64,000 nt of DNA from Albugo candida (lineage: Eukaryota > Oomycota > Peronosporomycetes > Albuginales > Albuginaceae): positions 479,718 through 543,717 of the forward strand of contig CAJNAR010000166.1 in the NCBI GenBank assembly GCA_905220665.1, written 5' to 3'. Below are positions 33,056-63,571 of the stretch, piece after piece. Made by a program: the position numbers and the translations under genes. A model generated the notes under the pieces. It had not been told where the DNA came from. It worked only from the letters and a program-made list of their open reading frames with translations, and ran no database searches. The first letter of the stretch is position 1; each line of letters begins with the position of its first letter.

Positions 33056-33128
33056 TGGAGAAGCTGGGCATCGATCCCAGTACCTCTCGCATGCTAAGCG
33101 AGCGCTCTACCATCTGAGCTACATCCCC
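33056..33128 (-). tRNA. tRNA-Ala (AGC)
   Basis: The 73-nt cloverleaf reads on the minus strand from 33128 to 33056. The acceptor starts GGGGATG and pairs with CTTCTCC, including the G3-U70 pair that defines alanine tRNAs; one U-U mismatch sits at position 6-67. The D arm has an intact A box (TAGCTCAGATGG). The anticodon stem-loop is CTCGCTTAGCATGCGAG with anticodon AGC. The T arm CTGGGATCGATGCCCAG contains the ATCGATG loop typical of eukaryotic tRNA-Ala. CCA is not encoded and there is no intron. The retrotransposon fragment starts 2 nt beyond its 5' end. Confidence 0.92.
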
Positions 33129-33129
33129 C
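33114..33129. repeat. Target-site duplication, original copy (inside tRNA-Ala)
   Basis: CTGAGCTACATCCCCC occurs here, as tRNA nt -1 to 15 read on the minus strand, and again exactly at 33409-33424 after the solo LINE 3' end. The 16-bp perfect direct repeat flanks the insertion. Confidence 0.8.
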
Positions 33130-33408
33130 TCCAATTTGCAAACCACGGTACTTTTGGACCATTCTTACAACTTTACAAACTTACCACTTAACAACTTTAC
33201 AACTTTCAACATCTAACCGTTACACGATGGACACACTCTCGTACTGTAGTGGTGAACGCTACCGCACTGCAGCACTAGCAACGAGGGACATATTATCAAC
33301 TCTCACAGGTATTCTCGAACCGTTTTTATATGTATATATGTTATTTAAGATAGCCTAGGCAACTAGAGAAGTCAGTTAGTCTAATTCTAGTAATATAGAC
33401 ACCTTCAA
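33130..33408 (+). mobile_element. Solo 3' end of family A LINE
   Basis: About 279 bp nearly identical to the 3' UTR of family A (compare 47333-47610). It starts at CCAATTTGCAAACC and ends at ..GACACCTTCAA. It contains no coding sequence of the element. It is a strongly 5'-truncated copy inserted 1 bp upstream of the mature 5' end of tRNA-Ala and flanked by the 16-bp duplication. Confidence 0.85.
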
Positions 33409-33424
33409 CTGAGCTACATCCCCC
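33409..33424. repeat. Target-site duplication, second copy (tRNA-Ala fragment)
   Basis: Identical to 33114-33129. It is followed directly by the 5' end of the first full-length LINE (ACTTCTCAATTTGCCGGC). Confidence 0.8.
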
Positions 33425-33517
33425 AACTTCTCAATTTGCCGGCTACTAAGTGACCCGCCAATTTAGTAAAAACAACTCGAAAAAACAACTTTTTTCAACT
33501 CCTTCCTCTCGAAAACA

Positions 33518-36025
33518 ATGGTTCAAGTCGACATATCGACACAACCCAGGGTGCTAGCGTCCACTTGTAGTGACGTGGCAACCCTCATGAGTCACCCAGC
33601 CTTGGGTGATTGCATGATTGTTGATTCGTCATCACCCCTGTGTGATGACGTGGAAAGTACCCCCACCCCCTGTTTGACGGTACAGGGTAATACCGGTACT
33701 ACCGGTGTAGGATGTGGTACCGGTGGTACAAGCGGTACTGTCGTTGCCCCGTCACAGGGTGACGAAAAGGCAACTGCAACTGAAAGTGTGGACGACACCA
33801 AAGGTCCCACTTTGGCAGAAATAATCAAGTCGCAGGAGTCCTTGCGTAAGGACCAGGCTAGAGCTCGAGCGAAATTTCGCGTAGAGCTCGCAAAGCCGAA
33901 AGCCTCGGATATCGAGGCTATACTGCAGCTATATGCTGATGGGGAGCACCCGGATTGGTCTGTTCTGTCTGCTAAATTGGAAGCAGCAAGACCTTTCCAA
34001 ATCCGGAAAGCAACCTTCCCGATGGTCTTGGAGACGGGCCAGTCCTTGACCCGTACTCCAAATGGAAAAATACTAACATCCCTGATGCGAGACCACGGTA
34101 ATCCGGTTTTTGAAAGCCTCCTGGAGAGCCGGTCAATCGCTCAGGTGTCCAAAATGCCTGGGGGAAACATCAGAGTGATGGTCACCACAGCGGATGCCTG
34201 CCAACAGTTGGAGTGTCAGCCGGTGACTATCCTTGGGGAGAAGTACTTTTTTCGGGAGTTTGATACTCTTGAAACAAAGTACTACCTCGATGTTTTCGGC
34301 GTAGGCGTGGAGGAAGAACGGAACAACATTCTCCGTGCTCTTCACCAACTCGGGTGTCAAGTGGTATATGACACCTTTCGCGAGACGGTTCCAACCAAAG
34401 AGGTGGTAATGTCGACTTGGAGAGTCTACTTTGGCTGCTCAACGTGTCCCCAACAACTGGTTAGAGTTGGTAAAGTGATTGAACAAATCGCTTACGACAA
34501 ACAGCTCTACCCAGTACGGGGTAAGAATGCTCCTATTCCAACGGAACGACCACGTTTTGGTCAACGTGGTCCTTACTGCTTGGATTTGGGTGCTGCAATA
34601 TACACGGGAACACGGCAACAACCAAAGGAAAACAAAAAGAACAACACAAAACAACCAAACACAACTCACACTCAGCCTCAGAATCAAAAGCAAGCAAAAT
34701 CGCAACAAGAAAAACAAAAACAAACAACCGCGCCAACGGCAGTCGTGGTGGTCCCAAAAAAGGTGGAGAAGCCAATTCAAATTCAGGAATTGGAGACGAG
34801 GCGACCGGAGCGCAAAAATTCCGACCAAATTTCGTTGGAGCTCAACAGTCCTCCCTCTATCTCACCACCAGGGTCACCAGACTTATCACAGACCACTCCC
34901 CCCATCCTACATTTAAAAAGTCAATCATCTTCCCATCCACGGGTGGAGAAGGATGGTGACACATACATGCAGTTGGCATGGACGCGAGGAAAGCGTAATC
35001 GAACTGAGCCGTTCGACCAAATGGTTTCCAATGCACCACCTCGTGCGCTCCCAGCGTTGGCGACAAGCAAGTACTTTGCTGTGCTCGCAACCATGGAGGT
35101 GGATGTCGAAGAAGTTCAAGCGGTTGCCAATCCGGCGCATGGCAATCGCATTCAAATTATTCCCGTGAAAGCACGGATGCCAAAAGAGGTAGCCACTTCG
35201 AAAGAGGCGGCACACTTTTATAAGAAGCGTCATACAACGGTGGAAAAAGCAGAGCGACCAACTCGAATTGGTGAAATCGGAGAGCTCATGGAAATGGATT
35301 CCAAAAATGCACTCCACCAGCTTCGACCGGACAAGCTGGTCCAAGCCGATGCGTGCATCCCACATGTGCGTAGGCTGGTACAATTTTGTACTAACCCGGA
35401 CCAAATCATCCGGGCAGCATTAGATCATCCCATCACCATGCATGGGGTGCTTATTTCATGCATGGAGTCGAATGATCCTGCGTTGGACGAAGTAGCACAT
35501 CTACTTCTCATCAATCGCGTTTTTGCAGCGCACAATCTCGGCGAAGATGTCACATTTACGACGCGATGGAATCGCCACGTTGGTGGAAAAGTTCCCTCCA
35601 AGAGAGCTGTATTGTTCGAGAAAGTGATGCCTTGGTGGAGGTCAGTGCCGGACACTGTTCACGGTTTGACTCGGGCGACCAAAGCTCTCGCATTATTGGA
35701 ATTGTTATTTATGTCTACTGCCCCGACATTTTACACAAACGATCACTGGATCCACTATCTCACCGATAGACCAGTGATCTGGATTCCGGGTCACCATTGT
35801 CGTTTACTCCCCATCAATGTGCTTATCTTGTTGTTACGCTCCGACGTGGGCATAAAGTGTTGGTCGCAATGGTTTGGTGGTAAATGGCAAGGACTTCTCT
35901 GTGGCGATATCGGCGAGCTCTCAGTCAATCTCAGTTTTTTCCCTGAAGAGAAAGCAACACTTCACCTCTCAAAAGAAGATGGTGAAATGAGGTTGATTGC
36001 CGGTCCACTTCAGCGTGAATGCTAA
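33518..36025 (+). CDS. LINE family A ORF1 protein (copy 1, intact)
   Basis: An 835-aa open frame with ATG start (MVQVDISTQPRV). The N-terminal 90 residues are Thr/Gly/Ser-rich and low complexity. Residues about 95-370 form a compact region that is well conserved between families A and B (blocks MVLETGQ, LMRDHGNPVFESLLE, KMPGGNIRVMVTT, FREFD, YFLDVFG-like, STWRVYF). A Gln/Asn/Lys-rich linker follows (about 370-480). A second conserved region runs to the end (MPKEVATSKEAAHFY, VGGKVPSKR, TNDHWI, PGHHCRLLP). I see no CCHC zinc knuckle and no clear coiled coil. By position it should be the RNA-binding ORF1 protein that packages the transcript; the biochemical role is inferred. Confidence 0.85.
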   Translation: MVQVDISTQPRVLASTCSDVATLMSHPALGDCMIVDSSSPLCDDVESTPTPCLTVQGNTGTTGVGCGTGGTSGTVVAPSQGDEKATATESVDDTKGPTLAEIIKSQESLRKDQARARAKFRVELAKPKASDIEAILQLYADGEHPDWSVLSAKLEAARPFQIRKATFPMVLETGQSLTRTPNGKILTSLMRDHGNPVFESLLESRSIAQVSKMPGGNIRVMVTTADACQQLECQPVTILGEKYFFREFDTLETKYYLDVFGVGVEEERNNILRALHQLGCQVVYDTFRETVPTKEVVMSTWRVYFGCSTCPQQLVRVGKVIEQIAYDKQLYPVRGKNAPIPTERPRFGQRGPYCLDLGAAIYTGTRQQPKENKKNNTKQPNTTHTQPQNQKQAKSQQEKQKQTTAPTAVVVVPKKVEKPIQIQELETRRPERKNSDQISLELNSPPSISPPGSPDLSQTTPPILHLKSQSSSHPRVEKDGDTYMQLAWTRGKRNRTEPFDQMVSNAPPRALPALATSKYFAVLATMEVDVEEVQAVANPAHGNRIQIIPVKARMPKEVATSKEAAHFYKKRHTTVEKAERPTRIGEIGELMEMDSKNALHQLRPDKLVQADACIPHVRRLVQFCTNPDQIIRAALDHPITMHGVLISCMESNDPALDEVAHLLLINRVFAAHNLGEDVTFTTRWNRHVGGKVPSKRAVLFEKVMPWWRSVPDTVHGLTRATKALALLELLFMSTAPTFYTNDHWIHYLTDRPVIWIPGHHCRLLPINVLILLLRSDVGIKCWSQWFGGKWQGLLCGDIGELSVNLSFFPEEKATLHLSKEDGEMRLIAGPLQREC

Positions 36026-39000
36026 GGGCTCCTCGATTATTCCAACGTGGAACAATATCTCAGCACTCACGGTGAATGTCAATGGAATTCATAAAAATGG
36101 TCATCTTTTTATCGACCACATCCTATCACAACACTCCATTTGTTGTGTTCAAGAAACCAAGTTTCACGATCACAACCAACTGGACTCATTTCAGTTTTTA
36201 TTATCCTCAAAAATGCAGCACAAAATGTTTGTCAATGATCACAACAGTGCATTTCTACATCCGACTCAAAACCGCAGTGGCGGCGTCATGACAATTCTTC
36301 GTTCGGACTTTCCCGGTTACTCAACAGCTGAAGAACTTACCGAACGAAGCATTCGAAATCGTTATTTGGTTTTGCGTCTTCTCATTCACGATGCACCGGT
36401 GTATATTCACAATGTATATGCACCGGTCACGGCCGAGGAACGAGTGGGTTTTTATGATTTATTGCTTTCCAACACTTTCGAATCGACCGCAACACATATC
36501 GTATTTGGTGATTTCAACACGCCACTCGATTCAGCTATCGATGCTTCGAGTGGAACAATTCGACACGAACCAAGTCAATTAGCGTGTTTGGAATGGCTTT
36601 CACAGTTGGGTGTGGTAGACGCTTGGCGAATCCAACATCCGACTGAAAAAGTATTTACAGGACCATTACCGCGCAAGAATCGATTAGACTATATCTGCAT
36701 GTCGGAAGAGCTATTCAATATGGTATACAAAACCTCTGAGTATTTTCGTCCACGACATGCGGGAGATCATCTGGCACAAAAAGTAACTTTTGCAAATCCA
36801 ACTCAATCTCCGGGACGAGGATATTGGAAATGTTCATTACGATTATTTGAATATCCTAAAGTTGTCGAAGCAATCAAATTGGAAGCGAATTTGGTGCTCG
36901 AACAGTTACGGACAACTTCGAATCCCGGTAAAATGTGGGAAAGTTGGAAGACGAAAATCAAGAAACAGCTTCAAACCATTGAAAAAAAGGTTGCAAAAGA
37001 TAGCCGACGTGATGTTGAGTCTAGCCAGCGTGTTTTGGAAGTCGCAGCAGCTCGCTATCGCATCCAAGACACCAATGAGTCACGGTATTTTTACGAATCG
37101 AGTCTCCAACAATTTAAAATTTCAGTCGAAAACAACGCGAAATACAACCAAGATGAAAGCTTCGACCATCACGTGAAGCATATGGAAAACTCTTCAAAGC
37201 ATTTTTTTCGCCCTCCGGATAGTTCTTGTCGTCGCGTGCCGATCGAAAATGTTACCAAAAAATGTGGTACCGTGACATCGAACCCGAGGGAGATTATTGA
37301 CGAATTCAGACATCATTGGGGTGGCGTCATGGGCTCTGTTTATAGCTCTGAGACTGACTCACATGTTCCAAGTGAAAGAAAGCAAAAAAAGTTACTCGAT
37401 TCGATTCAAGTTTCACTTGCCTCAGCAGAGCAAGAACGTCTCTCAACTCGGTTAAGTACGACCGAGATGGCGGAAGCGATCAAGCACATGCGGAGTAGTT
37501 CTTCTCCAGGTATGGATGGACTACCAGCTGCATTTTATCAGCTTGATCCGGAAACGTTTGGCGAGTGTCTGAAGATCGTGTTCGAATATCAGCTGGAAAG
37601 AGGAATTCTACTGCGATCACAACGTCACTCAGCAATCACACTTTTATACAAAAAAGGATCACGAGGTGATCCTGGCAACTATCGACCGATCGCACTACTT
37701 TGCGTCGATGTGAAAGTACTTTCAAAAGTGTTGGCGTATCGATTGCAACGTTTTTTGCCAAAATTGATCCATCAAGATCAAAAAGCATTTGTGCGCGGAA
37801 GGTCAATGCATCATCATATTCGACATCTCACCGACATCCAAGACTTGGTCACTCATCGTGGGGAGGAAGCTTATGCGACTTTTCTCGACTTTGAGAAAGC
37901 TTATGATCGAGTCAATTGGACGTACATGTTTCGCGTTTTGGAAAAGATGGGCGTTGGAAAAGTTTCATCGACTGGGTTCGTCTTTTGTACAATAACACAA
38001 AGGCGCAGTTGATGATTAATGGAAATATCACACCGTCCATTACACCACAACGTGGAGTGAAACAAGGTGATCCTCTCTCAGCATTACTTTTTCTGATGAC
38101 GATCGAACCTTTGGGAAATTTACTTCGACAACATGAAGAACATGGAATTTGGATTAATGGCACGACTGTCGCAACTGGATTATTTTTTGCGGACGATTCG
38201 ACATTGCTTTCAGAGACACCAAATGGTTTTGACGCAACTCGAACTCGTCCAAGTCTATTGCGATGGATCGGGTGCGAAACTCAACTTGAGTAAATCATCT
38301 TTGCTCTCGTTGAATCGGACGAAGCCGTGTCCATGTATTCCCAATTTGACCATAATGGGTCCGGAGGATTCGGTCAAGTATTTGGGTATTCCGTTCGGCC
38401 AGAAACCAACTCATTCGATGGTTATTTCAACTCTCGACAAGCGTTTTTACGATGGGTTTGGTGTATGGTTTCGACGAGCACGAACTGTTCGTGGTCGACT
38501 ACTGGTTGCGCAGACGATGATTTTATCACGTTTGTGGCATTACACGATGCACGTAGACATACCAGCAGCGACAATTCGACAGTGGCAATCGATGTTAAAT
38601 CGATTTGTGCTTGGTCGGAAACACAAAAAAGATTCAAAACATGTTCACCTACTCAGCAAAGAGTTTATATATCTTCGCCGACAAGATGGTGGACTACAAG
38701 TTCCTTTTTTGGTGGGACGACTAAAGCTACAACGTATTCAATTCCTTCAGCAGTTTGCATCCGATGCGTCAACAATTATTCCTGCGAATTGGACAACTGC
38801 TTCGACGGAATTATTCCAACTTATCCAACCTTCCTTTGGACCACACAAGCCGATGGATATATTCACCATCGCACCAAATCGACATGGGAAAATGGTTCAA
38901 TGGGAGAGCATATCGTCATGGTGGAAACAAGCATTTAGAATGTGGCATCAGATGGAGTGGAGCATTTCAATATCAGATTTAAATGTTTCACAACGCCGTC

Positions 39001-40192
39001 AGTACTACATGGAACAGCCGATGTGGTTCCACTGGGACCAAAAATTACATTACGAAGCTGCTACTCGTCATCCGAGTACGCAGAACGTTTGGTACAATCT
39101 TGGCATGGTGGATGAACCACATCGAACATTTCGAAAAACGTTTGCTACACTTTTCGACGTTCGAAGTTTGCAAGACTTTTTTCGTGAAAGCGACACATGG
39201 CCAACGAAGGAAGATTTCGTCGCCAACTATTACAACGACGAAGAGCTAAACACATCGGATATGGCTGAAGAAAAGTTGCTGAGTCGACTTTACAATGAAG
39301 TCACTCAGATTCTCCAGCGTATCCACTTGACGATTGGTCTCATCACTTGGATTATACCAACCACAAGTGGCAGATCATTTTATGTGGGAGTAACAAGCAA
39401 GGAAAGGAAACATTATTTTCCATCTATTCCACGCTCACAACTCTCACGAATCGTCTGGAAACCTCCCGAACCAACCAAGAGTCATCCGATGTCGACACAT
39501 TGGTCATCACGGGAGAGATCGGACGCACTGGATTCAGAACGAGTTCGAACTTTTATGGCTACATCACGGCATCTTCGAAAACGTGTATTACCAATTTTCG
39601 AGGATTTACAGTTTCGTATCGCCTTTCGAATGTTGCCAGTTCGATCTCGTTTCTGGTTCTTAACAAATATTCAGCCCGACATTATCTTGTGCACGCAGCC
39701 TTCGTGTGGGGCAGTGGAATCCGATCAACATCTCTTTCTAGAGTGCGATCACACGGCACAGTTATGGAGGGAGTTACTCCCTAGTTGGGATCAGTTATTC
39801 TCCTCGAGACCACGTTGGACGCATATTGCATGTGCAATCGTACCAACACTACGGTCGGATTGGAAAGACTATTCGACATTATCTCAGATTTATGGCTTGC
39901 ATTGCAAGCGGTGACACTGCACTTCGTCTGGACCGATCGGAATCGTCGTTTGTTCGATCAACGATCAGCAACTCCGACAGTTCCAGCACTTTCCGTCATT
40001 TACACCACGTTTAGTGCGCACGTTCGGTACTTTCGAAGACAGTGTTACGACCAAGAGGAACGCATTCAGCTTGCAAAGGTACTGGATCAACTCGCAACGC
40101 AGGGATCATTTGGTGGATTTTTCAGCAGTCGAAGATCATTGCTGCGGGTCCGGCACAGGCGAGTGGAACGGCAAGTGCAACTCGGGTCCTAG
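35997..40192 (+). pseudogene. LINE family A ORF2 (endonuclease-reverse transcriptase), copy 1, frameshifted
   Basis: It encodes an APE-type endonuclease (ICCVQETKF, VFGDFNTPLD, NRLDYICMS, HAGDHLA), a reverse transcriptase (LDFEKAYDRVNW, GVKQGDPLSALLF, LFFADDSTLL) and a C-terminal CCHC finger of the zf-RVT type (CTQPSC..H..C). Compared with the other copies there are three lesions: one A lost from an A-run near 37960, GT lost near 38227, and one T lost near 39873. The last frame ends at 40192 with the same C-terminus as the other copies. There is no AUG between an in-frame TGA (35994-35996) and the endonuclease domain, so initiation is unusual. Confidence 0.85.
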
Positions 40193-40614
40193 TCCTAGTT
40201 GGACGGCGTTGTTCAGCCTAGTGTGGCGCACACCAATGTGCACAGTACTTTTGGACCATTTTACAACACACGGTAGTTTTGGACCATTTTTTCACAATTT
40301 TTTACAACTTTCAACATCTATCCGTTACACGATGGATACACTCTCGTACTGTAGTGGTGAGCGCTACCGCACTGCAGGACTAGACATATTATCATCTCTC
40401 ACAGGTATTTCACGAAATGTTTTTTATATGTATATATGTTATTTAGGATAGCCTAGGCAACTAGAGAAGTTAGTTTAGTCTAATTCTAGCAATATAGACA
40501 CCTTCAACTGAGCTAGACAGGCACTTCTCAATTTGCCGGCTACTACGTAAGCCGCCAAATTAGTACAAAACAACTCGAAAAACTACCTTTTTCAACTCTT
40601 TCCTCTCGAAAACA

Positions 40615-43123
40615 ATGGTCCAAGTCGACATATCGACACAACCAAGGGTGCTAGCGTCCACTTGTAGTGACGTGGCAACCCTCATGAGTCACCCAGCCTT
40701 GAGTGATTGCATGATTGTTGATGAGTCATCACCCCTATGTGATGACGTGGAAAGTACCCCCACCCCCTGTTTGACGGTACAGGGTAATACCGGTACTACC
40801 GGTGTAGGATGTGGTACCGGTGGTACAAGCGGTACTGTCGTTGCCCCGTCACAGGGTGACGAAAAGGCAACTGCAACTGAAAGTGTGGACGACACCAAAG
40901 GTCCCACTTTGGCAGAAATAATCAAGTCGCAGGAGTCCTTGCGTAAGGACCAGGCTAGAGCTCGAGCGAAATTTCGCGTAGAGCTCGCAAAGCCGAAAGC
41001 CTCGGATATCGAGGCTATATTGCAGCTATATGCTGATGGGGAGCACCCGGATTGGTCGGTTCTGTCTGCTAAATTGGAAGCAGCAAGACCTTTCCAAATC
41101 CGGAAAGCAACCTTCCCGATGGTCTTGGAGACGGGCCAGTCCTTGACCCGTACTCCAAATGGAAAAATACTAACATCCCTGATGCGAGACCACGGTAATC
41201 CGGTTTTTGAAAGCCTCCTGGAGAGCCGGTCAATCGCTCAGGTGTCCAAAATGCCTGGGGGAAACATCAGAGTGATGGTCACCACAGCGGATGCCTGCCA
41301 ACAGTTGGAGTGTCAGCCGGTGACTATCCTTGGGGAGAAGTACTTTTTTCGGGAGTTTGATACTCTTGAAACAAAGTACTACCTCGATGTTTTCGGCGTA
41401 GGCGTGGAGGAAGAACGGAACAACATTCTCCGTGCTCTTCACCAACTCGGGTGTCAAGTGGTATATGACACCTTTCGCGAGACGGTTCCAACCAAAGAGG
41501 TGGTAATGTCGACTTGGAGAGTCTACTTTGGCTGCTCAACGTGTCCCCAACAACTGGTTAGAGTTGGTAAAGTGATTGAACAAATCGCTTACGACAAACA
41601 GCTCTACCCAGTACGGGGTAAGAATGCTCCTATTCCAACGGAACGACCACGTTTTGGTCAACGTGGTCCTTACTGCTTGGATTTGGGTGCTGCAATATAC
41701 ACGGGAACACGGCAACAACCAAAGGAAAACAAAAAGAAAAACACAAAACAACCAAACACAACTCACACTCAGCCTCAGAATCAAAAGCAAGCAAAATCGC
41801 AACAAGAAAAACAAAAACAAACAACCGCGCCATCGGCAGTCGTGGTGGTCCCAAAAAAGGTGGAGAAGCCAATTCAAATTCAGGAATTGGAGACGAGGCG
41901 ACCGGAGCGCAAAAAATTCCGACCAAATTTCGTTGGAGCTCAACAGTCCTCCCTCTATCTCACCACCAGGGTCACCAGACTTATCACAGACCACTCCCCC
42001 CATCCTACATTTAAAAAGTCAATCATCTTCCCATCCACGGGTGGAGAAGGATGGTGACACATACATGCAGTTGGCATGGACGCGAGGAAAGCGTAATCGA
42101 ACTGAGCCGTTCGACCAAATGGTTTCCAATGCACCACCTCGTGCGCTCCCAACGTTGGCGACAAGCAATTACTTTGCTGTGCTCGCAACCATGGAGGTGG
42201 ATGTCGAAGAAGTTCAAGCGGTTGCCAATCCGGCGCATGGCAATCGCATTCAAATTATTCCCGTGAAAGCACGGATGCCAAAAGAGGTAGCCACTTCGAA
42301 AGAGGCGGCACACTTTTATAAGAAGCGTCATACAACGGTGGAAAAAGCAGAGCGACCAACTCGAATTGGTGAAATCGGAGAGCTCATGGAAATGGATTCC
42401 AAAAATGCACTCCACCAGCTTCGACCGGACAAGCTGGTCCAAGCCGATGCGTGCATCCCACATGTGCGTAGGCTGGTACAATTTTGTACTAACCCGGACC
42501 AAATCATCCGGGCAGCATTAGATCATCCCATCACCATGCATGGGGTGCTTATTTCATGCATGGAGTCGAATGATCCTGCGTTGGACGAAGTAGCACATCT
42601 ACTTCTCATCAATCGCGTTTTTGCAGCGCACAATCTCGGCGAAGATGTCACATTTACGACGCGATGGAATCGCCACGTTGGTGGAAAAGTTCCCTCCAAG
42701 AGAGCTGTATTGTTCGAGAAAGTGATGCCTTGGTGGAGGTCAGTGCCGGACACTGTTCACGGTTTGACTCGGGCGACCAAAGCTCTCGCATTATTGGAAT
42801 TGTTATTTATGTCTACTGCCCCGACATTTTACACAAACGATCACTGGATCCACTATCTCACCGATAGACCAGTGATCTGGATTCCGGGTCACCATTGTCG
42901 TTTACTCCCCATCAATGTGCTTATCTTGTTGTTACGCTCCGACGTGGGCATAAAGTGTTGGTCGCAATGGTTTGGTGGTAAATGGCAAGGACTTCTCTGT
43001 GGCGATATCGGCGAGCTCTCAGTCAATCTCAGTTTTTTCCCTGAAGAGAAAGCAACACTTCACCTCTCAAAAGAAGATGGTGAAATGAGGTTGATTGCCG
43101 GTCCACTTCAGCGTGAATGCTAA
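40615..43123 (+). pseudogene. LINE family A ORF1, copy 2, one frameshift
   Basis: Same protein as copy 1 ORF1. An A-run near 41911-41916 has six A instead of five, moving the frame in the linker between the two conserved regions. The second half continues open to the normal stop at 43123. An otherwise clean gene with a single homopolymer change could be a recent mutation or an assembly error. Confidence 0.85.
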
Positions 43124-46100
43124 GGGCTCCTCGATTATTCCAACGTGGAACAATATCTCAGCACTCACGGTGAATGTTAATGGAATTCATAAAAATGGTC
43201 ATCTTTTTATCGACCACATCCTATCACAACACTCCATTTGTTGTGTTCAAGAAACCAAGTTTCACGATCACAACCAACTGGACTCATTTCAGTTTTTATT
43301 ATCCTCAAAAATGCAGCACAAAATGTTTGTCAATGATCACAACAGTGCATTTCTACATCCGACTCAAAACCGCAGTGGCGGCGTCATGACAATTCTTCGT
43401 TCGGACTTTCCCGGTTACTCAACAGCTGAAGAACTTACCGAACGAAGCATTCGAAATCGTTATTTGGTTTTGCGTCTTCTCATTCACGATGCACCGGTGT
43501 ATATTCACAATGTATATGCACCGGTCACGGCCGAGGAACGAGTGGGTTTTTATGATTTATTGCTTTCCAACACTTTCGAATCGACCGCAACACATATCGT
43601 ATTTGGTGATTTCAACACGCCACTCGATTCAGCTATCGATGCTTCGAGTGGAACAATTCGACACGAACCAAGTCGATTAGCGTGTTTGGAATGGCTTTCA
43701 CAGTTGGGTGTGGTAGACGCTTGGCGAATCCAACATCCGACTGAAAAAGTATTTACAGGACCATTACCGCGCAAGAATCGATTAGATTATATCTGCATGT
43801 CGGAAGAGCTATTCAATATGGTATACAAAACCTCTGAGTATTTTCGTCCACGACATGCGGGAGATCATCTGGCACAAAAAGTAACTTTTGCAAATCCAAC
43901 TCAATCTCCGGGACGAGGATATTGGAAATGTTCATTACGATTATTTGAATATCCTAAAGTTGTCGAAGCAATCAAATTGGAAGCGAATTTGGTGCTCGAA
44001 CAGTTACGGACAACTTCGAATCCCGGTAAAATGTGGGAATGTTGGAAGACGAAAATCAAGAAACAGCTTCAAACCATTGAAAAAAAGGTTGCACAAGATA
44101 GCCGACGTGATGTTGAGTCTAGCCAGCGTGTTTTGGAAGTCGCAGCAGCTCGATATCGCATTCAGGACACCAATGAGTCACGGTATTTTTACGAATCGAG
44201 TCTCCAACAATTTCGAATTTCAGTCGAAAACAACGCGAAATACAACCAAGATGAAAGTTTCGACCATCACGTGAAGCATATGGAGAACTCTTCAAAGCAT
44301 TTTTTTCGCCCTCCGGATAGTTCTTGTCGTCGCGTGCCGATCGAAAATGTTACAAAAAAATGTGGTACCGTGACATCGAACCCGAGGGAGATTATTGACG
44401 AATTCAGAGATCATTGGGGTGGTGTCATGGGCTCTGTTTATAGCTCAGAGACCGACTCAAATGTTCCAAGTGACAGAAAGCAAAAAAAGTTACTCGATTC
44501 GATTCAAGTTTCACTTGCCTCAGCAGAGCAAGAACGTCTCTCAACTCGGTTAAGTACGACCGAGATGGCGGAAGCGATCAAGCACATGCGGAGTAGTTCT
44601 TCTCCAGGTATGGATGGACTACCAGCTGCATTTTATCAGCTTGATCCGGAAACGTTTGGCGAGTGTCTGAAGATCGTGTTCGAATTTCAGCTAGAAAGAG
44701 GAATTTTACTGCGATCACAACGTCACTCAGCAATCACACTTTTATACAAAAAAGGATCACGAGGTGATCCTGCAACTATCGACCGATCGCACTGCTTTGC
44801 GTCGATGTGAAAGTACTTTCAAAAGTGTTGGCGTATCGATTGCAACGTTTTTTGCCAAAATTGATCCATCAAGATCAAAAAGCATTTGTGCGCGGAAGGT
44901 CAATGCATCATCATATTCGACATCTCACCGACATCCAAGACTTGGTCACTCATCGTGGGGAGGAAGCTTATGCGACCTTTCTCGACTTTGAGAAAGCTTA
45001 TGATCGAGTCAATTGGACGTACATGTTTCGCGTTTTGGAAAAAATGGGTGTTGGAAAAAGTTTCATCGACTGGGTTCGTCTTTTGTACAATAACACAAAG
45101 GCGCAGTTGATGATTAATGGAAATATCACACCGTCCATTACACCACAACGTGGAGTGAAACAAGGTGATCCTCTCTCAGCATTACTTTTTCTGATGACGA
45201 TCGAACCTTTGGGAAATTTACTTCGACAACATGAAGAACATGGCATTTGGATTAATGGCACGACTGTCGCAACTGGATTATTTTTTGCGGACGATTCGAC
45301 ATTGCTTTCAGAGACACCAAATGGTGTTTTGACGCAACTCGAACTCGTCCAAGTCTATTGCGATGGATCGGGTGCGAAACTCAACTTGAGTAAATCATCT
45401 TTGCTCTCGTTGAATCGGACCATGCCGTGTCCATGTATTCCCAATTTGACCATAATGGGTCCGGAGGATTCGGTCAAGTATTTGGGTATGCCGTTCGGCC
45501 AGACACCGACTCATTCGATGGTTATTTCAACTCTCGACAAGCGTTTTTACGATGGGTTTGGTGCATGGTTTCGACGAGCACGAACTGTTCGTGGTCGACT
45601 ACTGGTTGCGCAGACGATGATTTTATCACGTTTGTGGCATTACACGATGCACGTAGACATACCAGCAGCGACAATTCGACAGTGGCAATCGATGTTAAAT
45701 CGATTTGTGCTTGGTCGGAAACACAAAAAAGATTCAAAACATGTTCACCTACTCAGCAAAGAGTTTTTATATCTTCGCCGACAAGATGGTGGACTACAAG
45801 TTCCTTTTTTGGTGGGACGACTAAAGCTACAACGTATTCAATTCCTTCAGCAGTTCGCATCCGATGCGTCAACAATTCTTCCTGCGAATTGGACAACAGC
45901 TTCGACGGAATTATTACAACTTATTCAACCTCCCTTTGGACCACACAAGCCGATGGATATATTCACCATCGCACCAAATCGACATGGAAAAATGGTTCAA
46001 TGGGAGAGCATATCATCATGGTGGAAAAAGCATTTAGAATGTGGCATCAGATGGATTGGAGCATTTCAATATCAGATTTAAATGTTTCACAACGCCGTCA

Positions 46101-47292: not shown

Positions 47293-47610
47293 TCCTAGTT
47301 GGCTGGTCATGCTCACCGTAGTGTGGCGCACACCAATTTGCAAACCACGGTACTTTTGGACCATTTTTACAACTTTACAAACTTACCACTTAACAACTTT
47401 ACAACTTTCAACATCTATCCGTTACACGATGGACACACTCTCGTACTGTAGTGGTGAACGCTACCGCACTGCAGAACTAGCAACGAGGGACATATTATCA
47501 ACTCTCACAGGTATTCTCGAAACGTTTTTATATGTATATATGTTATTTAAGATAGCCTAGGCAACTAGAGAAGTCAGTTAGTCTAATTCTAGTAATATAG
47601 ACACCTTCAA

Positions 47611-47625
47611 CTGAGCTAGACAGGC
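47611..47625. repeat. tRNA-Lys-like 15-bp junction repeat
   Basis: CTGAGCTAGACAGGC, whose reverse complement GCCTGTCTAGCTCAG matches nt 1-15 expected for a eukaryotic tRNA-Lys gene, including the A-box start TAGCTCAG. The same 15 bp also occurs at 40508-40522, 54559-54573 and 57081-57095, always exactly between adjacent LINE units. Confidence 0.8.
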
Positions 47626-47726
47626 ACTTCTCAATTTGCCGGCTACTACGTAACCCGCAAAACGAATACAACAAAGCGACTTTTCAACAAAAACACGCAC
47701 TTTTCCACCCTTTCCTGTCGAAGACA

Positions 47727-53200: not shown

Positions 53201-54396
53201 AGACCTTGTCTTCACAGGAGCAATACATCGTTATGTTAAATGCTCCTGTCTGGCTGCAGGTGGATTCTCATCTTCAGTTTGAGCAACGGCAACGTTCTAC
53301 TAGTGCGGTTGCTCATCGTCGATGTATGGGAATGGTCCCGGAACCTGCGCGTACTTTTAGGATGCAGTTCGCTCAAGCGTTCCGCATCCGTTCTCTACGT
53401 GATTTGTTCGGTGGAAGATCAACTTGGTTCAATTCGTCTTCCGAGTTTGTCTTGCGTTTCAGTACGCATACAGTTGGAAATTCAGCGGAAGTAGCCAAGA
53501 CAAAGCTTTTACGACGCTTGTACGTGGAAGCTACTCAAATTTTACGTCGCATTCAACCGGAGGGCGTTTTGTTGTGTCCAGAGCGTTCCATTGCAAAGGC
53601 GTATCCGGTTCAGTTTGGCATTCAAATTTCGGATACGAAGGTTTTCTTTCCGACAATTCCTCGGAATCAACTCTTTCGAGTTGTTGGGAAAGCAGAACCA
53701 CCGGACAAGCCTCACCCACTGCTGCTTCACATACCAGAGAGAGACCGGCCAAGTGCTTCGACTTGGGTAAAGGATTTCTCAACGGGTTTTAAACGTCTTC
53801 GAGGACGTTTATTACCAATATACTCGGACATTCAGCTCCGACTTACATATTCAATGTTACCAGTGCGATCCCGGTTCTGGTTTCTGAAGCAAGCTCATCC
53901 GGAAATCATCCTGTGTACACAGGAGCATTGTGGTGAGTTGGAAAGTTACCAGCATCTGTTTTTCGACTGTAGTAGGACATACCCAATTTGGGAGGAGCTA
54001 TTCCCTTCTTGGATAGCTTTCTTTTCAGCTCGACCGAAGTGGTCGCACATTGCGTGTCTACGACTTCCTCACCTTAGTGATAGGTGGAAGCCATTCAGGA
54101 TGGTGTTGGAAGATCTTTGGTTTGCATTGGTTGCCATTTCGATCCACTTCATCTGGACGGATCGGAATAGACGACTTTTCGACCAAGTATCTACAACACC
54201 AACAGGACCAGCTGTTTCGGTGATCTACAGCACATTCAGCGCCCATATTCGGTTTTATCAACGTCAGTGCTATGATATCGCACAGCTTTATCAGCTCCAG
54301 ACGGTTTTGCTCGGTTTATTGCAATCAGGTTCAGCAAAAAGATATTTCTCCGGGAGATCAGATCTTCTCAAGATACGAAGGCGTGAGCGCTCATAA
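50200..54396 (+). CDS. LINE family B ORF2 endonuclease-reverse transcriptase (intact)
   Basis: A 1398-aa frame that overlaps ORF1 by 47 bp in the +1 frame. An in-frame ATG exists at 50200, unlike family A. The APE endonuclease covers about residues 25-270: CCVQDTRF (Asp60 where the catalytic Glu is usual), GDLNTTL (Asp179, Asn181), RLDYILLS and GDHLAH (Asp264, His265). A linker rich in charged helices follows. The reverse transcriptase lies at about 500-780: SSPGMDGLPAAFY, GNYRPIALICVDVK, FLDFEKAYDRVDW, RGVKQGDPLSALLF, and the FADD catalytic box (Asp740, Asp741). The C-terminal CCHC finger is Cys1239, Cys1244, His1252, Cys1257 (zf-RVT type). Enzymes of this layout nick the target DNA and prime cDNA synthesis there. 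No stop or shift was found. Confidence 0.92.
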   Translation: MEYKHSLWVLSLFSIKGSLSDYNSWTNKTILSVNTNGIKKNGHLAIQHTFSKYALCCVQDTRFRNRQHLETFRFHLTSNFRTKSFISDTNSLHSHPSRERVNGVMTIIRNDFPGFQTAEAVHNVTVQDRYLVVRLVVHGAPVYVHNVYAPVDLTERKPFFDQLPIGSFEANASHIVCGDLNTTLCPSLDCSSGAYRHDPSRLSCLEWLSNLGVLDAWRHQHPEERIFTGPQPRRNRLDYILLSEHLFRTIYKDSNYATLPHTGDHLAHVLKFANPSQLQGRGYWKCPLSLFEYPVIIEAIEVDAERILEKLRASSSPGKDWERWKKYMKRLLQQIQKMIRRQEEDEIVRAQSELEHAASAYRMSDQRKEKKIYKDALHSYHERVKSSSKYNQDSAFDHQMRNVEKSSRYFFRPLDSTCHRVPLEEVLLPNGKVSKNPLEITLQFTDHWGGIMGDKESSAGVPLRPCIQKQQTLIDSITKTLNSSDESFLSAPLTKSEMEGAIKSMRGHSSPGMDGLPAAFYQLAPSVFGECLQIVFDDQLRRGSLLRSQRSSAITLLYKKGSRADPGNYRPIALICVDVKVLSKVLAYRLQKMLPKLIHEDQKAFLRGRSIHHHIRYMSDLQDLITHRGEEAYATFLDFEKAYDRVDWSYMFAVLSKMNCGNSFIKWTKLLYTNTNVSLLLNGTLSPKITPSRGVKQGDPLSALLFLMTIEPLGNLLRRHEGPGICITPMDTSTSLFFADDSTLLSSSLGGVEAQLDVVQHYCDGSGAKLNLSKSTLLPLNRHQACQPFALVKVLSRCESVKYLGIPFSQSPVSDLMIEFLEDRFYGGFRQWFRRARTVRGRLLVAQTMVLSRLWHFTTHFDIPKHLLRRWQSMLNRFVLSRKYERDSTHVQLIRSELLYLPYSQGGLQVPMIEKQLMKQRLQFLQQFALHSSTPIPSNWTLTGMEIVKNILPNFGPFKPLDILTISPRRHATMVRWNVASSWWKQTCVWWSQSKWELTPQTLSSQEQYIVMLNAPVWLQVDSHLQFEQRQRSTSAVAHRRCMGMVPEPARTFRMQFAQAFRIRSLRDLFGGRSTWFNSSSEFVLRFSTHTVGNSAEVAKTKLLRRLYVEATQILRRIQPEGVLLCPERSIAKAYPVQFGIQISDTKVFFPTIPRNQLFRVVGKAEPPDKPHPLLLHIPERDRPSASTWVKDFSTGFKRLRGRLLPIYSDIQLRLTYSMLPVRSRFWFLKQAHPEIILCTQEHCGELESYQHLFFDCSRTYPIWEELFPSWIAFFSARPKWSHIACLRLPHLSDRWKPFRMVLEDLWFALVAISIHFIWTDRNRRLFDQVSTTPTGPAVSVIYSTFSAHIRFYQRQCYDIAQLYQLQTVLLGLLQSGSAKRYFSGRSDLLKIRRRERS

Positions 54397-54573
54397 GTCT
54401 GAGCTGAGTGGCTAGTCTACTCAACTGTCTTCAACCGCACCAAGTTCACTATTTGTGACTTTTCAAGCCACATCTGCATGTATTATATGTTATTTATTGT
54501 AGTTTAGGCATTTAGAGAAGTCATTTACGTCTAATTCTAGTAATATGGACAACTTCAACTGAGCTAGACAGGC

Positions 54574-57095
54574 GCAGTTGATGATTAATGGAAATATCAC
54601 ACCGTCCATTACACCACAACGTGGAGTGAAACAAGGTGATCCTCTCTCAGCATTACTTTTTCTGATGACGATCGAACCTTTGGGAAATTTACTTCGACAG
54701 CATGAAGAACATGGCATTTGGATTAATAGCACGACTGTCGCAACTGGATTATTTTTTGCGGACGATTCGACATTGCTTTCAGAGACACCAAATGGTGTTT
54801 TGACGCAACTCGAACTCGTCCAAGTCTATTGCGATGGATCGGGTGCGAAACTCAACTTGAGTAAATCATCTTTGCTCTCGTTGAATCGGACCATGCCGTG
54901 TCCATGTATTCCCAATTTGACCATAATGGGTCCGGAGGATTCGGTCAAGTATTTGGGTATTCCGTTCGGCCAGAAACCAACTCATTCGATGGTTATTTCA
55001 ACTCTCGACAAGCGTTTTTACGATGGGTTTGGTGTATGGTTTCGACGAGCACGAACTGTCCGTGGTCGACTATTGGTTGCGCAGACGATGATTTTATCAC
55101 GTTTGTGGCATTACACGATGCACGTAGACATACCAGCAGCGACAATTCGACAGTGGCAATCGATGTTAAATCGATTTGTGCTTGGTCGGAAACACAAAAA
55201 AGATTCAAAACATGTTCACCTACTCAGCAAAGAGTTTTTATATCTTCGCCGACAAGATGGTGGACTACAAGTTCCTTTTTTGGTGGGACGATTAAAGCTA
55301 CAACGTATTCAATTCCTTCAGCAGTTCGCATCCGATGCGTCAACAATTATTCCTGCGAATTGGACAACTGCTTCGACGGAATTATTGCAACTTATCCAGC
55401 CTTCCTTTGGACCACACAATCCGATGGATATATTCACCATCGCACCAAATCGACATGGGAAAATGGTTCAATGGGAGAGCATATCGTCATGGTGGAAAAG
55501 CATTTAGAATGTGGCATCAGATGGATTGGAGCATTTCAATATCAGATTTAAATGTTTCACAACGCCGTCAGTACTACATGGAAGAACCGATGTGGTTTCA
55601 CTGCGACCAAAAATTACATTACGAAGCTGCTACTCGTCATCCGAGTACACAGAACGTTTGGTACAATCTTGGCATGGTGGATGAACCACATCGAACATTT
55701 CGAAAAACATTTGCTACACTTTTCGACGTTCGAAGTTTGCAAGACTTTTTTCGTGAAAGCGACACATGGCCAACGAAGGAAGATTTCGTCGCCAACTATT
55801 ACAACGACGAAGAGCAGAACACCTCGGATATGTCTGAAGAAAAGTTGCTGAGTCGACTTTACAATGAAATCACTCAGATTCTCCAGCGTATCCACTCGAC
55901 GATTGGTCTCATCACTTGGATTATACCAACTACAAGTGGCAGATCATTTTATGTGGGAGTAACAAGCAAGGAAAGGAAACATTATTTTCCATCTATTCCA
56001 CGCTCACAACTCTCACGAATCGTCTGGAAACCTCCCGAACCAACCAAGAGTCATCCGATGTCGACACATTGGTCATCACGGGAGAGATCGGACGCACTGG
56101 ATTCCGAACGAGTTCGAACTTTTATGGCTACATCACGGCATCTTCGAAAACGTGTATTACCAATTTTTGAGGATTTACAGTTTCGTATCGCCTTTTGAAT
56201 GTTGCCAGTTCGATCTCGTTTCTGGTTCTTAACAAATATTCAGCCCGACATTATCTTGTGCACGCAGCCTTCGTGTGGGGCAGTGGAATCCGATCAACAT
56301 CTCTTTCTCGAGTGCGACCACACGGCACAGTTATGGAGGGAGTTACTTCCTAGTTGGGATCAGTTTTTCTCCTCTCGACCACGTTGGACGCATATTGCAT
56401 GTGCAATCGTACCAACACTACGGTTGGATTGGAAAGATTATTTCGACATTATCTCAGATTTATGGCTTGCATTGCAAGCGGTGACACTGCACTTCGTCTG
56501 GACAGATCGGAATCGTCGTTTGTTCGATCATCGATCAGCAACTCCGACAGTTCCAGCACTTTCCGTCATTTACACCACGTTTAGTGCGCACGTTCGGTAC
56601 TTTCGAAGACAGTGTTACGACCAAGAGGAACGCATTCGGCTTGCAAAGGTACTGGATCAACTCGAAACGCAAGGATCATTTGGTGGATTTTTCAGAAGTC
56701 GAAGATCATTGCTGCGGGTCCGGCACAGGCGAGTGGAACGGCAAGTGCAACTCGGATCCTAGTCCTAGTTGGCTGGTTCTGCTCACCGTAGTGTGGCGCA
56801 CACCAATTTGCAAACCACGGTACTTTTGGACCATTTTTACAACTTTACAAACTTACCACTTAACAACTTTACAACTTTCAACATCTATCCGTTACACGAT
56901 GGACACACTCTCGTACTGTAGTGGTGAACGCTACCGCACTGCAGAACTAGCAACGAGGGACATATTATCAACTCTCACAGGTATTCTCCAAACGTTTTTA
57001 TATGTATATATGTTATTTAAGATAGCCTAGGCAACTAGAGAAGTCAGTTAGTCTAATTCTAGTAATATAGACACCTTCAACTGAGCTAGACAGGC
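54574..57095 (+). mobile_element. LINE family A, copy 4 (5'-truncated, ~2.5 kb)
   Basis: It begins abruptly inside the RT domain at GCAGTTGATGATTAATGG (equivalent to 45103 in copy 2), right after the family B junction GACAGGC. The shared AGGC(GCAG) at the join is microhomology typical of 5' truncation during target-primed reverse transcription. It runs through the complete 3' UTR and the 15-bp tRNA-like repeat. Confidence 0.9.
54578..56762 (+). pseudogene. LINE family A ORF2 C-terminal part, copy 4
   Basis: It retains the RT half from the GVKQGDPLSALLF motif through LFFADDSTLL to the C-terminal CCHC finger and the normal end. Two nucleotides are lost in the A-rich site near 55497, and a CGA-to-TGA change creates a stop at 56196-56198. 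Dead on arrival because of truncation, with later decay. Confidence 0.85.
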
Positions 57096-57187
57096 ACTTC
57101 TCAATTTGCCGGCTACTACGTAACCCGCCAAGTTAGTACAAAACAGCTCGAAAAACTACCTTTTTCAACTCTTTCCTCTCGAAAACA

Positions 57188-59677: not shown

Positions 59678-62600
59678 GGGCTCCTCGATTATTTCGACGT
59701 GGAACAATATCTCAGCACTCACGGTGAATGTTAATGGAATTCATAAAAATGGTCATCTTTTTATCGACCACATCTTATCACAACACTCCATTTGTTGTGT
59801 TCAAGAAACCAAGTTTCACGATCACAACCAACTGGAATCATTTCAATTTTTATTATCCTTAAAAATGCAGCACAAAATGTTTGTCAATGATCACAACAGT
59901 GCTTTTCTCCATCCGACTCAAAACCGCAGTGGCGGCGTCATGACAATCCTTCGTTCGGACTTTCCCGGTTATACAACAGCTGAAGAACTCACCGATCGAA
60001 GCATTCGAAATCGTTATTTGGTTCTGCGTCTTCTCATTCACAATGCACCGGTGTATATTCACAATGTATATGCACCGGTCAAGGCCGAGGAACGAGTGAG
60101 TTTTTATGAGTTATTGCTTTCCAACACTTTCGAATCGACCGCAACACATATCGTATTTGGTGATTTCAACACACCACTCGATCCAGCTATCGATGCTTCG
60201 AGTGGAACAATTCGACACGAACCAAGTCGATTAGCGTGTTTGGAATGGCTTTCACAGTTGGGTGTGGTAGACGCTTGGCGAATCCAACATCCGACTGAAA
60301 AAGTATTTACAGGACCATTACCGCGCAAGAATCGACTTGATTATATCTGCATGTCGGAAGAGCTATTCAATATGGTCTACAAAACCTCTGAGTATTTTCG
60401 TCCACGACATGCGGGAGATCATCTGGCACAAAAAGTAACTTTTGCAAATCCAACTCAATCACCCGGTCGAGGATATTGGAAATGCTCATTACGACTATTT
60501 GAATATCCTCAAGTTGTCGAAGCAATCAAATTGGAAGCGATTTTGGTGCTCGAACAGTTACGGACAACTTCGAATCCCGGTAAAATGTGGGAAAGTTGGA
60601 AGACGAAAATCAAGAAACAGCTTCAAAGCATTGAAAAAAAGGTTGCACAAGATAGCCGACGTGATGTTGAGTCTAGCCAGCGTGTTTTGGAAGTCGCAGC
60701 AGCTCGCTATCGCATCCAAGACACCAATGAGTCACGGTATTTTTACGAATCGAGTCTCCAACAATTTAAAATTTCAGTCGAAAACAACGCGAAATACAAC
60801 CAAGATGAAAGCTTCGACCATCACGTGAAGCATATGGAAAACTCTTCAAAGCATTTTGTTCGCCCTCCGGATAGTTCTTGTCGATGCGTGCCGATCGAAA
60901 ATGTTACAAAAAAATGTGGTACCGTGACATCGAACCCGAGGGAGATTATTGACGAATTCAGAGATCATTGGGGTGGCGTCATGGGCTCTGTTTATAGCTC
61001 TGAGACCGACTCAAATGATCCAAGTGAAAGAAAGCAAAAAAAGTTACTCGATTCGATTCAAGTTTCACTTGCCTCAGCAGAGCAAGACCGTCTCTCCTCT
61101 CAGTTAAGTACGACCGAGATGGCGGAAGCGATCAAGCACATGCGGAGTAGTTCTTCTCCAGGTATGGATGGACTACCAGCTGCATTTTATCAGCTTGATC
61201 CGGAAACGTTTGGCGAGTGTCTGAAGATCGTGTTCGAATATCAACTGGAAAGAGGAATTTTACTTCGATCACAACGTCACTCGGCAATCACACTTTTATA
61301 CAAAAAAGGATCACGAGGTGATCCTGGCAACTATCGACCGATCGCACTACTTTGCGTCGATGTAAAAGTACTTTCAAAAGTGTTGGCGTATCGATTGCAA
61401 CGTTTTTTGCCAAAATTGATCCATCAAGATCAAAAAGCATTCGTGCGAGGAAGGTCAATGCATCACCATATTCGACATCTGACCGACATCCAAGACTTGG
61501 TCACTCATCGTGGGTAGGAAGCTTACGCGACTTTTCTCGACTTTGAGAATGCTTATGATCGAGTCAATTGGACGTACATGTTTCGCGTTTTGGAAAAAAT
61601 GGGCGTTGGAAAAAGTTTCATCGACTGGGTTCGTCTTTTGTACAATAACACAAAGCGCAGTTGATGATTAATGGAAATATCACACCGTCCATTACACCAC
61701 AACGTGGAGTGAAACAAGGTGATCCTCTCTCAGCATTACTTTTTCTGATGACGATCGAACCTTTGGGAAATTTACTTCGACAACATGAAGAACATGGCAT
61801 TTGGATTAATGGCACGACTGTCGCAACTGGATTATTTTTTGCGGACGATTCGACATTGCTTTCAGAGACACCAAATGGTGTTTTGACGCAACTCGAACTC
61901 GTCCAAGTCTATTGCGATGGATCGGGTGCGAAACTCAACTTGAGTAAATCATCTTTGCTCTCGTTGAATCGGACCATGCCGTGTCCATGTATTCCCAATT
62001 TGACCATAATGGGTCCGGAGGATTCGGTCAAGTATTTGGGTATGCCGTTCGGCCAGACACCGACTCATTCGATGGTTATTTCAACTCTCGACAAGCGTTT
62101 TTACGATGGGTTTGGTGTATGGTTTCGACGAGCACGAACTGTCCATGGTCGACTACTGGTTGCGCAGACGATGATTTTATCACGTTTGTGGCATTACACG
62201 ATGCACGTAGACATACCAGCAGTGACAATTCGACAGTGGCAATCGATGTTAAATCGATTTGTGCTTGGTCGGAAACACAAAAAAAGATTCAAAACATGTT
62301 CACCTACTCAGCAAAGAGTTTTTATATCTTCGCCGACAAGATGGTGGACTACAACTTCCTTTTTTGGTGGGACGACTAAAGCTACAACGTATTCAATTCC
62401 TTCAGCAGTTCGCATCCGATGCGTCAACAATTATTCCTGCGAATTGGACAACTGCTTCGACGGAATTATTGCAACTTATCCAGCCTTCCTTTGGACCACA
62501 CAATCCGATGGATATATTCACCATCGCACCAAATCGACATGGGAAAATGGTTCAATGGGAGAGCATATCGTCATGGTGGAAACAAGCATTTAGAAATGTG

Positions 62601-63571
62601 GCATCAGATGGATTGGAGCATTTCAATATCAGATTTAAATGTTTCACAACGCCGTCAGTACTACATGGAACAGCCGATGTGGTTCCACTGCGACCAAAAA
62701 TTACATTACGAAGCTACTACTCGTCATCCGAGTACGCAGAACGTTTGGTACAATCTTGGCATGGTGGATGAACCACATCGAACATTTCGAAAAACGTTTG
62801 CTACACTTTTCGACGTTCGAAGTTTGCAAGACTTTTTTCGTGAAAGCGACACATGGCCAACGAAGGAAGATTTCGTCGACATGTATTACAACGACGAAGA
62901 GCTGAACACATCGGATATGTCTGAAGAAAAGTTGCTGAGTCGACTTTACAATGAAGTCACTCAGATTCTCCAGCGTATCCACTCGACGATTGGTCTCATC
63001 ACTTGGATTATACCAAATACAAGTGGCAGATCATTTTATGTGGGAGTTACAAGCAAGGGAAGGAAACATTATTTTCCATCTATTCCACGCTCACAACTCT
63101 CACGAATCGTCTGGAAACCTCCCGAACCAACCAAGAGTCATCCGATGTCGACACATTGGTCATCACGGGAGAGATCGGACGCACTGGATTCAGAACGAGT
63201 TCGAACTTTTATGGCTTCATCACGGCATCTTCGAAAACGTGTATTACCAATTTTCGGGGATTTACAGTTTCGTCTAGCCTTCCGAATGCTGCCAGTTCGA
63301 TCTCGTTTCTGGTTCTTGAAGGATATTCAGCCGATATCATATTGTGCACACAGCCTTCGTGTGGCGCAGTGGAATCCGATCAACATCTCTTTTTAGAGTG
63401 CGATCACACGACACAATTATGGAGGGGGTTACTCCCTTGTTGGGATCAGTTTTTCTCCTCTTGACCACGTTGGACGCAGTTCCTGTGCAATTGTGCCAGA
63501 ACTACCGTCGGCATGGAAAGATTATCAGCAAATTAGATCCGATACAAGGCTTTCATTGCAAGCGGTGACAA
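59667..63571 (+). pseudogene. LINE family A ORF2, copy 5, heavily disrupted
   Basis: Endonuclease, RT and finger blocks are recognisable. Lesions relative to the other copies: GAG to TAG stop at 61515-61517; one G lost near 61654; one A gained near 62285; one A gained near 62597; one nucleotide lost near 63325; CGA to TGA stop near 63462; then loss of similarity. The catalytic LFFADDSTLL box is still readable near 61838. Confidence 0.85.

Follow-up and report, generated by a model that had tools for sequence, protein, structure and literature searches.

How can a retrotransposon insert itself, apparently repeatedly, where an essential gene has both its coding sequence and its promoter, and leave that gene unbroken? 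The question is raised by a stretch of 64,000 nucleotides from Albugo candida (assembly GCA_905220665.1, contig CAJNAR010000166.1), which we call the window. An original prediction made from its letters had claimed that five head-to-tail long interspersed elements (LINEs) and a solo LINE 3' end lie here with tRNA 5' fragments between them, and every junction that it described was found: the spacers are 15-16-bp tRNA 5' ends, Ala once and Lys four times. We are confident that these elements represent an L1-type LINE group, with two open reading frames (ORFs), an APE endonuclease and a reverse transcriptase (RT), that uses target-primed reverse transcription to enter RNA polymerase III (Pol III) genes at the A box, where the nick appears to fall after TAGCTCAG. 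The duplication made at each insertion would rebuild the tRNA gene, so the site would stay open to insertion and arrays would arise. All coordinates are window positions, and C-numbers denote contigs of the 38.9 Mb assembly, the window being carried by C164.

The target at the left of the array is an intact tRNA-Ala(AGC) gene (33056..33128, minus strand, ARAGORN), whose 5' end points toward the LINEs. Sequence comparison places the target-site copy at this 5' end, where CTGAGCTACATCCCCC is read on the plus strand (33114..33129). It is followed by the solo, 5'-truncated LINE 3' end (33130..33408, plus strand, repeat family D19, sharing 99% identity with the LINE2 3' end) and by the Ala piece, again CTGAGCTACATCCCCC (33409..33424), a 16-bp duplication of the tRNA-Ala 5' end. 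The five LINE units then succeed one another on the plus strand: LINE1 (33425..40507, full length, with ORF1 open and ORF2 divided between frames), LINE2 (40523..47610, full length), LINE3 (47626..54558, full length, with both frames open), the 5'-truncated LINE4 (54574..57080) and LINE5, without its 3' end (57096 to about 63571, an end point taken from the original prediction). Between them stand the 15-bp Lys pieces, at 40508..40522 (CTGAGCTAGACAGGC, of the GCCTGTCTAGCTCAG type), 47611..47625, 54559..54573 and 57081..57095, and a motif search of the window found no LINE 3' motif downstream of LINE5. LINE1, LINE2, LINE4 and LINE5 form family A and are 92.7-98.3% identical to one another, the upper value being that of LINE1 and LINE2, while LINE3, of family B, is 57.5% identical to LINE1, LINE2 and LINE5. 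The pieces had been taken for the first 15 nucleotides of a tRNA. This holds for the Lys pieces, which equal the first 15 nucleotides of two tRNA-Lys(CTT) genes and one tRNA-Lys(TTT) gene located elsewhere in the genome, but not for the Ala piece, which has 16 nucleotides and covers tRNA positions -1 to 15.

The same arrangement is found at other tRNA genes. An Rfam search, in which 63 of 1851 candidates were scored by best score and which is therefore a sample, gave 65 tRNA matches; 32 matches on C134 and C196, taken as organelle DNA, were dropped, and all 33 tRNA genes kept were read with their flanks. Eighteen of the 33 are occupied, 15 by a LINE 5' end within 0-3 bp, one by a 5'-truncated LINE and two by a short interspersed element (SINE), and the element is directed away from the tRNA in every one of the 18. 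Old, non-abutting LINE pieces near two other tRNA genes (L147, L152) were left out of this count. Occupancy differs with the A box: 15/20 genes whose A box contains GCTCAG carry an element, versus 3/13 of the others (Fisher p = 0.005). Among the 13 tRNA genes with an exact AGCTCAGTNGGTAGAGC, 12 are occupied (ten by a LINE and two, on C29 and C32, by a SINE), the gene at C162:690175 being the only one without either.

We then compared the two ends of those tRNA-side insertions for which both were read. In 11 of 13, the far end repeats the first nucleotides of its own tRNA: Lys (a TTT gene on C149 and a CTT gene on C157), Thr-TGT, Thr-AGT, Met (two loci), Arg-CCG, Phe, Ala, and SINEs at Asn and at Cys. 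The insertions are gathered at one fixed place of tRNA genes, the mature 5' end. At tRNA-Thr(TGT) on C162 the junction reads CTAAGCCACAAAGGC, in keeping with the deviating A box CTAAGCC of this gene, and at tRNA-Arg(CCG) on C156 it reads TTAGGCCACAAGGAC after one C, in keeping with the deviating A box TTAGGCC. Both junctions track the A box of the gene rather than a fixed CTGAGC. Judging from the junctions, the nick probably lies in the A box at about tRNA nucleotide 15/16, where it had been placed originally, and the further claim that the tRNA 5' end is left duplicated is supported by the 11 own-tRNA copies and by the occupied genes of the sample.

Alternatively, the 15-bp pieces could be a part of the element, a 3' tag or a transduced tail, and not of the target. 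The fourfold occurrence of the Lys piece in the window would agree with this, as would the base after CTTCAA, which is a C in 109/114 junctions; one C at the LINE 3' end is in fact probably the element's own, because the targets at C154 and at Arg-CCG are without that C. The pieces, however, vary by tRNA and match the adjacent gene in the 11 insertions named above, and 73 of 98 LINE 3' ends sampled genome-wide, described below, are followed by other sequences. Furthermore, an empty counterpart exists for a site on C27, where a second copy of the flank, 97% identical and without a LINE, holds CTGAGCTACTTACC unbroken, and the occupied site shows CTGAGCTACTTACC on both sides of the LINE; a flank search for another site returned the occupied copy only. 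A tag is ruled out by the empty C27 site together with the Thr-TGT and Arg-CCG junctions, leaving this explanation with next to no probability. Duplications of 13-17 bp are present at all seven sites outside tRNA genes for which both ends were read, two of these sites being SINE A boxes and two having one mismatch.

How far does the target extend beyond tRNA genes? The 19-mer TAGACACCTTCAACTGAGC occurs 398 times in the genome at up to two mismatches, compared to once for the reversed control, indicating that its recurrence is not due to chance. For a target-blind sample we searched the LINE end without CTGAGC, which gave 267 exact places, and read the first 100 in contig order (C1-C71); 98 of them are distinct, since C60/C67 and one pair on C39 show no difference within the compared letters. 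A recognised tRNA 5' piece (at most two mismatches) follows 21 of the 98 ends (23 when all 100 places are counted), an A-box-like SINE sequence follows four, and neither follows the remaining 73. Recognition was based on the tRNA 5' ends met in this analysis, so that 21/98 is probably a lower bound; these ends sit on about a dozen contigs and are thus not independent. Fifteen of the 21 lead directly into the next LINE and three into a SINE. From the other side, 18 of the 33 full-length LINE 5' ends read (40 listed, ranked by likeness to LINE1) adjoin a tRNA gene or a tRNA piece. Strict tRNA specificity is ruled out by the share of 21 in 98.

The expectation that most copies would abut tRNA genes and not lie in random DNA was therefore borne out in part. 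Most of the sampled ends are at neither a tRNA nor a SINE A box, but 63 of these 73 start with CTG in the A-box register. Across all 98 ends, CTG is found at the start of 87, CTGA of 73, CTGAG of 55 and CTGAGC of 48; the full CTGAGC is kept by 28 of the 73. The base frequencies at the 73 ends (C.95, T.97, G.90, A.79, G.63, C.52, T.41, A.40) describe the complement of TAGCTCAG, the A-box core. This suggests that the target is an A-box-like motif, used most fully in tRNA genes, and that dispersed copies thus mostly use a degenerate form of it.

The hexamer by itself does not account for the frequency with which tRNA genes are hit. Counted on both strands, the 33 kb of the window that precede the array contain CTGAGC 18 times, corresponding to about 21,000 expected genome-wide, and 18 of the 48 CTGAGC junctions are at tRNA genes. 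With 200 tRNA genes assumed, the binomial probability for 17/48 is about 1e-22, and a rough by-locus calculation for 10/42 gives about 7e-12; for A. laibachii, 153 tRNA genes have been predicted (PMC3130010). Something must therefore act in addition to the hexamer, be it a more extended motif, Pol III factors or selection that removes insertions elsewhere. This excess is what would be seen if tethering to the Pol III machinery, and not sequence recognition, brought the LINE to tRNA genes, as has been proposed for Dictyostelium TRE5-A and yeast Ty3; the ORF1 of TRE5-A contacts TFIIIB proteins (PMC5911963). On the other hand, the junction lies at a fixed nucleotide inside the gene, the dispersed sites share the motif in register and have similar duplication lengths, and most sampled tRNA genes with a different A box have escaped insertion (3/13 hit). 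Since tethering alone explains none of these three observations, we consider it unlikely as the whole explanation, while a mixed model that combines motif recognition with Pol III tethering may apply.

Based on these data, we propose that insertion into the A box proceeds as follows. The endonuclease would nick the tRNA-sense strand just after 5'-TAGCTCA(G), at tRNA nucleotides 14-16, as the junctions suggest. The freed 3' end would prime cDNA synthesis on LINE RNA ending in ...ACCTTCAAC, the end that is seen at the junctions, and the other strand would be cut 13-17 bp upstream, which in tRNA genes is approximately the mature 5' end, as the duplication lengths indicate. The product is what occupied genes present: the tRNA gene is intact, a LINE in divergent orientation starts 0-3 bp upstream of it, and past the far end of this LINE the tRNA 5' end is found again as a 15-16-bp copy. 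The truncated copies starting at 33130 and 54574, together with the 13-17-bp duplications, are consistent with target-primed reverse transcription. The rebuilt tRNA would then be open to new hits and insertions would stack head to tail, a step suggested by arrays that are mostly of one tRNA type and by the mixture of LINE families within one array. A degenerate form of the motif would serve in the same way at dispersed sites and in tRNA-derived SINEs.

Arrays could also be generated by unequal crossing-over, or by tandem duplication of one insertion. LINE1 and LINE2 would fit such an origin, as the closest pair and with the same Lys piece after each, and the two insertions whose ends do not match suggest that some recombination has occurred. 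This is difficult to reconcile with the divergence of LINE3 from LINE1, LINE2 and LINE5, with LINE4, which is truncated at a point of its own and yet is followed by its own tRNA piece, and with SINEs interleaved with LINEs; we regard it as distinctly improbable that the array arose in this way. Repeated insertion at one rebuilt tRNA gene, on the other hand, predicts a single tRNA type per array. Among the contigs with two or more tRNA pieces read, this is the case on eight: Met on C150, Ile on C99, Tyr (a provisional label) on C64 and C160, Ala on C67 and C91, Thr-AGT on C77 and Asn on C39. Mixed arrays are present on C71 (Phe and Ile), in the window on C164 (Ala and Lys) and in its twin on C149 (two Lys forms). 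A tandem LINE pair on C7 has a duplication unlike any tRNA met in this analysis, indicating that arrays also form outside tRNA genes. As to whether arrays grow at the end next to the tRNA, open frames become shorter with distance from the tRNA on C150, but their lengths show no clear trend on C193, C91 and C77.

The mixed array of the window requires separate consideration, since it is present twice in the assembly. The window ends at the end of contig C164 (543717 bp), and C149 (495847 bp) stops at the equivalent base. The two are 99-100% identical in the seven LINE1 stretches compared and 100% identical in three stretches beyond LINE1. The parts to the left of LINE1 differ: on C149 there are about 7.1 kb that include LINE 5' and 3' ends, together with a tRNA-Lys(TTT) gene, and on C164 there are the 279-bp fragment and the tRNA-Ala gene. 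Given this twin, a misjoin or a recombination event may lie behind the change from Ala to Lys across LINE1, and the matching right ends can be taken as a sign of haplotype duplication or of an assembly fork. We see an even chance that the Ala-then-Lys order is an assembly artefact produced from two loci that share LINEs: the ten alike stretches, the common end base and the different left parts speak for it, whereas each left end has its own matching duplication, and two real haplotypes or an exchange between arrays would be the alternative.

Several observations weigh against the proposed insertion into A boxes. The array of the window itself combines Ala and Lys pieces; five of the 20 sampled GCTCAG tRNA genes are free; and the far end is unlike its own tRNA in two of the 13 insertions (Thr-TGT on C23 and Lys-CTT on C30). 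The 73 target-blind ends at neither a recognised tRNA nor a SINE A box are the majority, and ten of them lack the CTG start. In addition, the tRNA survey is a sample by best Rfam score, and the 98 ends were drawn from contigs C1-C71 only.

The SINE that occupies some of the tRNA genes is itself tRNA-derived, measures about 0.32 kb and ends in CACCCTTAAC. It is found at the 5' side of tRNA-Asn, tRNA-Cys and tRNA-Ile genes, with a matching duplication read at the first two, and CTGAGC follows 48 of 56 exact SINE ends. The SINE and the LINE have a common target and similar last 10 nucleotides, suggesting that the SINE probably borrows the machinery of the LINE. Other tRNA-derived SINE-like repeats are hit by the LINE as well, some of them at the A box (L009, L038, L050, L178, L180, L185).

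The LINE group is, by its sequence features, an L1-type non-long terminal repeat (non-LTR) retrotransposon. In LINE3, ORF1 (839 aa, 47727-50246, plus strand) precedes ORF2 (1398 aa, 50200-54396, plus strand), and a Pfam search found both the APE endonuclease (Exo_endo_phos) and the RT (RVT_1) in ORF2; this order, together with target duplications and 5' truncation, is that of APE-type, L1-like elements. ORF2 aligns with human L1 ORF2p from the endonuclease through the RT (residues 26-820, E 2e-51), while R2 proteins align in the RT part only, and the APE domain sets the group apart from the restriction-like-endonuclease (NeSL/R2-type) elements. No RNase H domain was found in ORF2 by Pfam at E values up to 1. 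Among the 120 of 421 matches listed for the RT region, the closest is a protein of an ENA record, with 98% identity, and the next are from Globisporangium splendens, at most 68% identical at full coverage, and then from other oomycetes. ORF1 gave 16 matches, with Albugo candida at 81% over 44% of the query and at 60%; further named matches are from A. laibachii, [Pythium] brassicae, Plasmopara halstedii and Phytophthora cactorum. No relatives were found when viral contigs were scanned.

Despite their overall distance, the two families are alike at their ends. Between LINE2 and LINE3 the first 35 nucleotides are 94% identical and the last 35 are 89% identical, against a mean of 53% for 35-nucleotide windows; only 0.04% and 1.1% of such windows attain the identity of the first and of the last end, respectively. 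We also noted that the first 15 nucleotides of the LINE, ACTTCTCAATTTGCC (LINE2, 40523-40537), can pair at 12-13 of the 15 positions with a segment located some 40-50 nucleotides before the 3' end, in a comparison with the last 75 nucleotides of the element. This is common to LINE1, LINE2 and LINE3, that is, to both families, and could serve to join the RNA ends or help in attachment of the 5' end.

LINEs that target tRNA genes are known as such, and the comparisons made here refer to the accessible parts of the papers cited. Among dictyostelid LINEs, D. purpureum NLTR-A inserts 2-6 bp upstream of tRNA genes, and NLTR-A, P. pallidum NLTR-B and D. discoideum TRE5 and TRE3 resemble our group in being non-LTR elements that are listed under L1 and found at tRNA genes; TRE5 inserts in opposite orientation, as here (PMC5006619, PMC5911963). 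They differ in several respects: the sites of TRE5 and TRE3 are 40-150 bp away from tRNA genes, NLTR-A and NLTR-B carry an RNase H domain, and TRE5-A and TRE3-A end in oligo(A) instead of ACCTTCAAC. The accessible parts of these two papers (PMC5006619, PMC5911963) make no mention of an A-box duplication, element arrays or a companion SINE for TRE or NLTR. Non-LTR elements specific for tRNA genes are also found in NeSL-1_TV (tRNA-Pro), LIN15_SM (tRNA-Arg) and LIN25_SM (tRNA-Glu) (PMC4640811). These NeSL/R5-related LINEs belong to the restriction-like-endonuclease group and are listed with one tRNA type each, unlike the APE/L1-type group described here, which hits many.

Keno, Mutsu and Dewa are site-specific LINEs of the Tx1 group. 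Like our elements they are placed at small-RNA loci, Dewa in a tRNA-Leu spacer (PMC3706591), but their targets are different. The Dada DNA transposons of Perkinsus marinus (Dada-tIA, tIB, tY) share the tRNA A box as target, with a proposed duplication TAGCTC (PMC3706591), but they use a DDE transposase and make a 6-bp duplication. The oomycete Utopia is likewise a target-specific LINE, found within arrays of its target gene, U2 snRNA; it differs in its restriction-like endonuclease group, in its U2 target and in an RNase H domain upstream of the RT (PMC4640811). Among the titles, abstract openings and passages covered by our literature searches, which did not extend to subscription papers or Repbase, none describes A-box nicking and tRNA rebuilding by an L1-type LINE, and such a LINE with its companion SINE looks new.

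If the A-box motif were intrinsic to the endonuclease of this L1-type group, it would add to the known examples of APE enzymes that nick in a sequence-specific manner. With 12 of 13 tRNA genes of the exact A-box/D-loop sequence directly preceded by a LINE or a SINE in this assembly, it becomes possible to test what Pol III transcription requires upstream and how tRNA genes and a parasite co-evolve. A more far-reaching picture, which we offer tentatively and with some doubt, is that the endonuclease reads the A box itself, with a 15-bp stagger tuned to the distance from the A box to the mature 5' end, and that each tRNA gene, being rebuilt, is a permanent and re-usable landing pad. The LINE 5' end, so alike in the two families, would then replace the upstream DNA of the tRNA, and LINE and tRNA would start divergently from one common region. 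Transcription of most tRNA genes with this type of A box would in that case depend on upstream sequence that came from a LINE or a SINE.

Finally, two minor observations were made. Another LINE subfamily seems to begin right after the Thr-TGT (L162) and Arg-CCG (L164) duplications: both show GGCTACAGCGC a short way past the junction, and at L164 the frame after the duplication looks, by eye, like the start of LINE3 ORF1. LINE subfamilies may differ in the A box that they prefer. The dropped contigs C134 and C196 are rich in tRNA, with the tRNA order mirrored on C196, and probably represent the mitochondrial genome with an inverted repeat.

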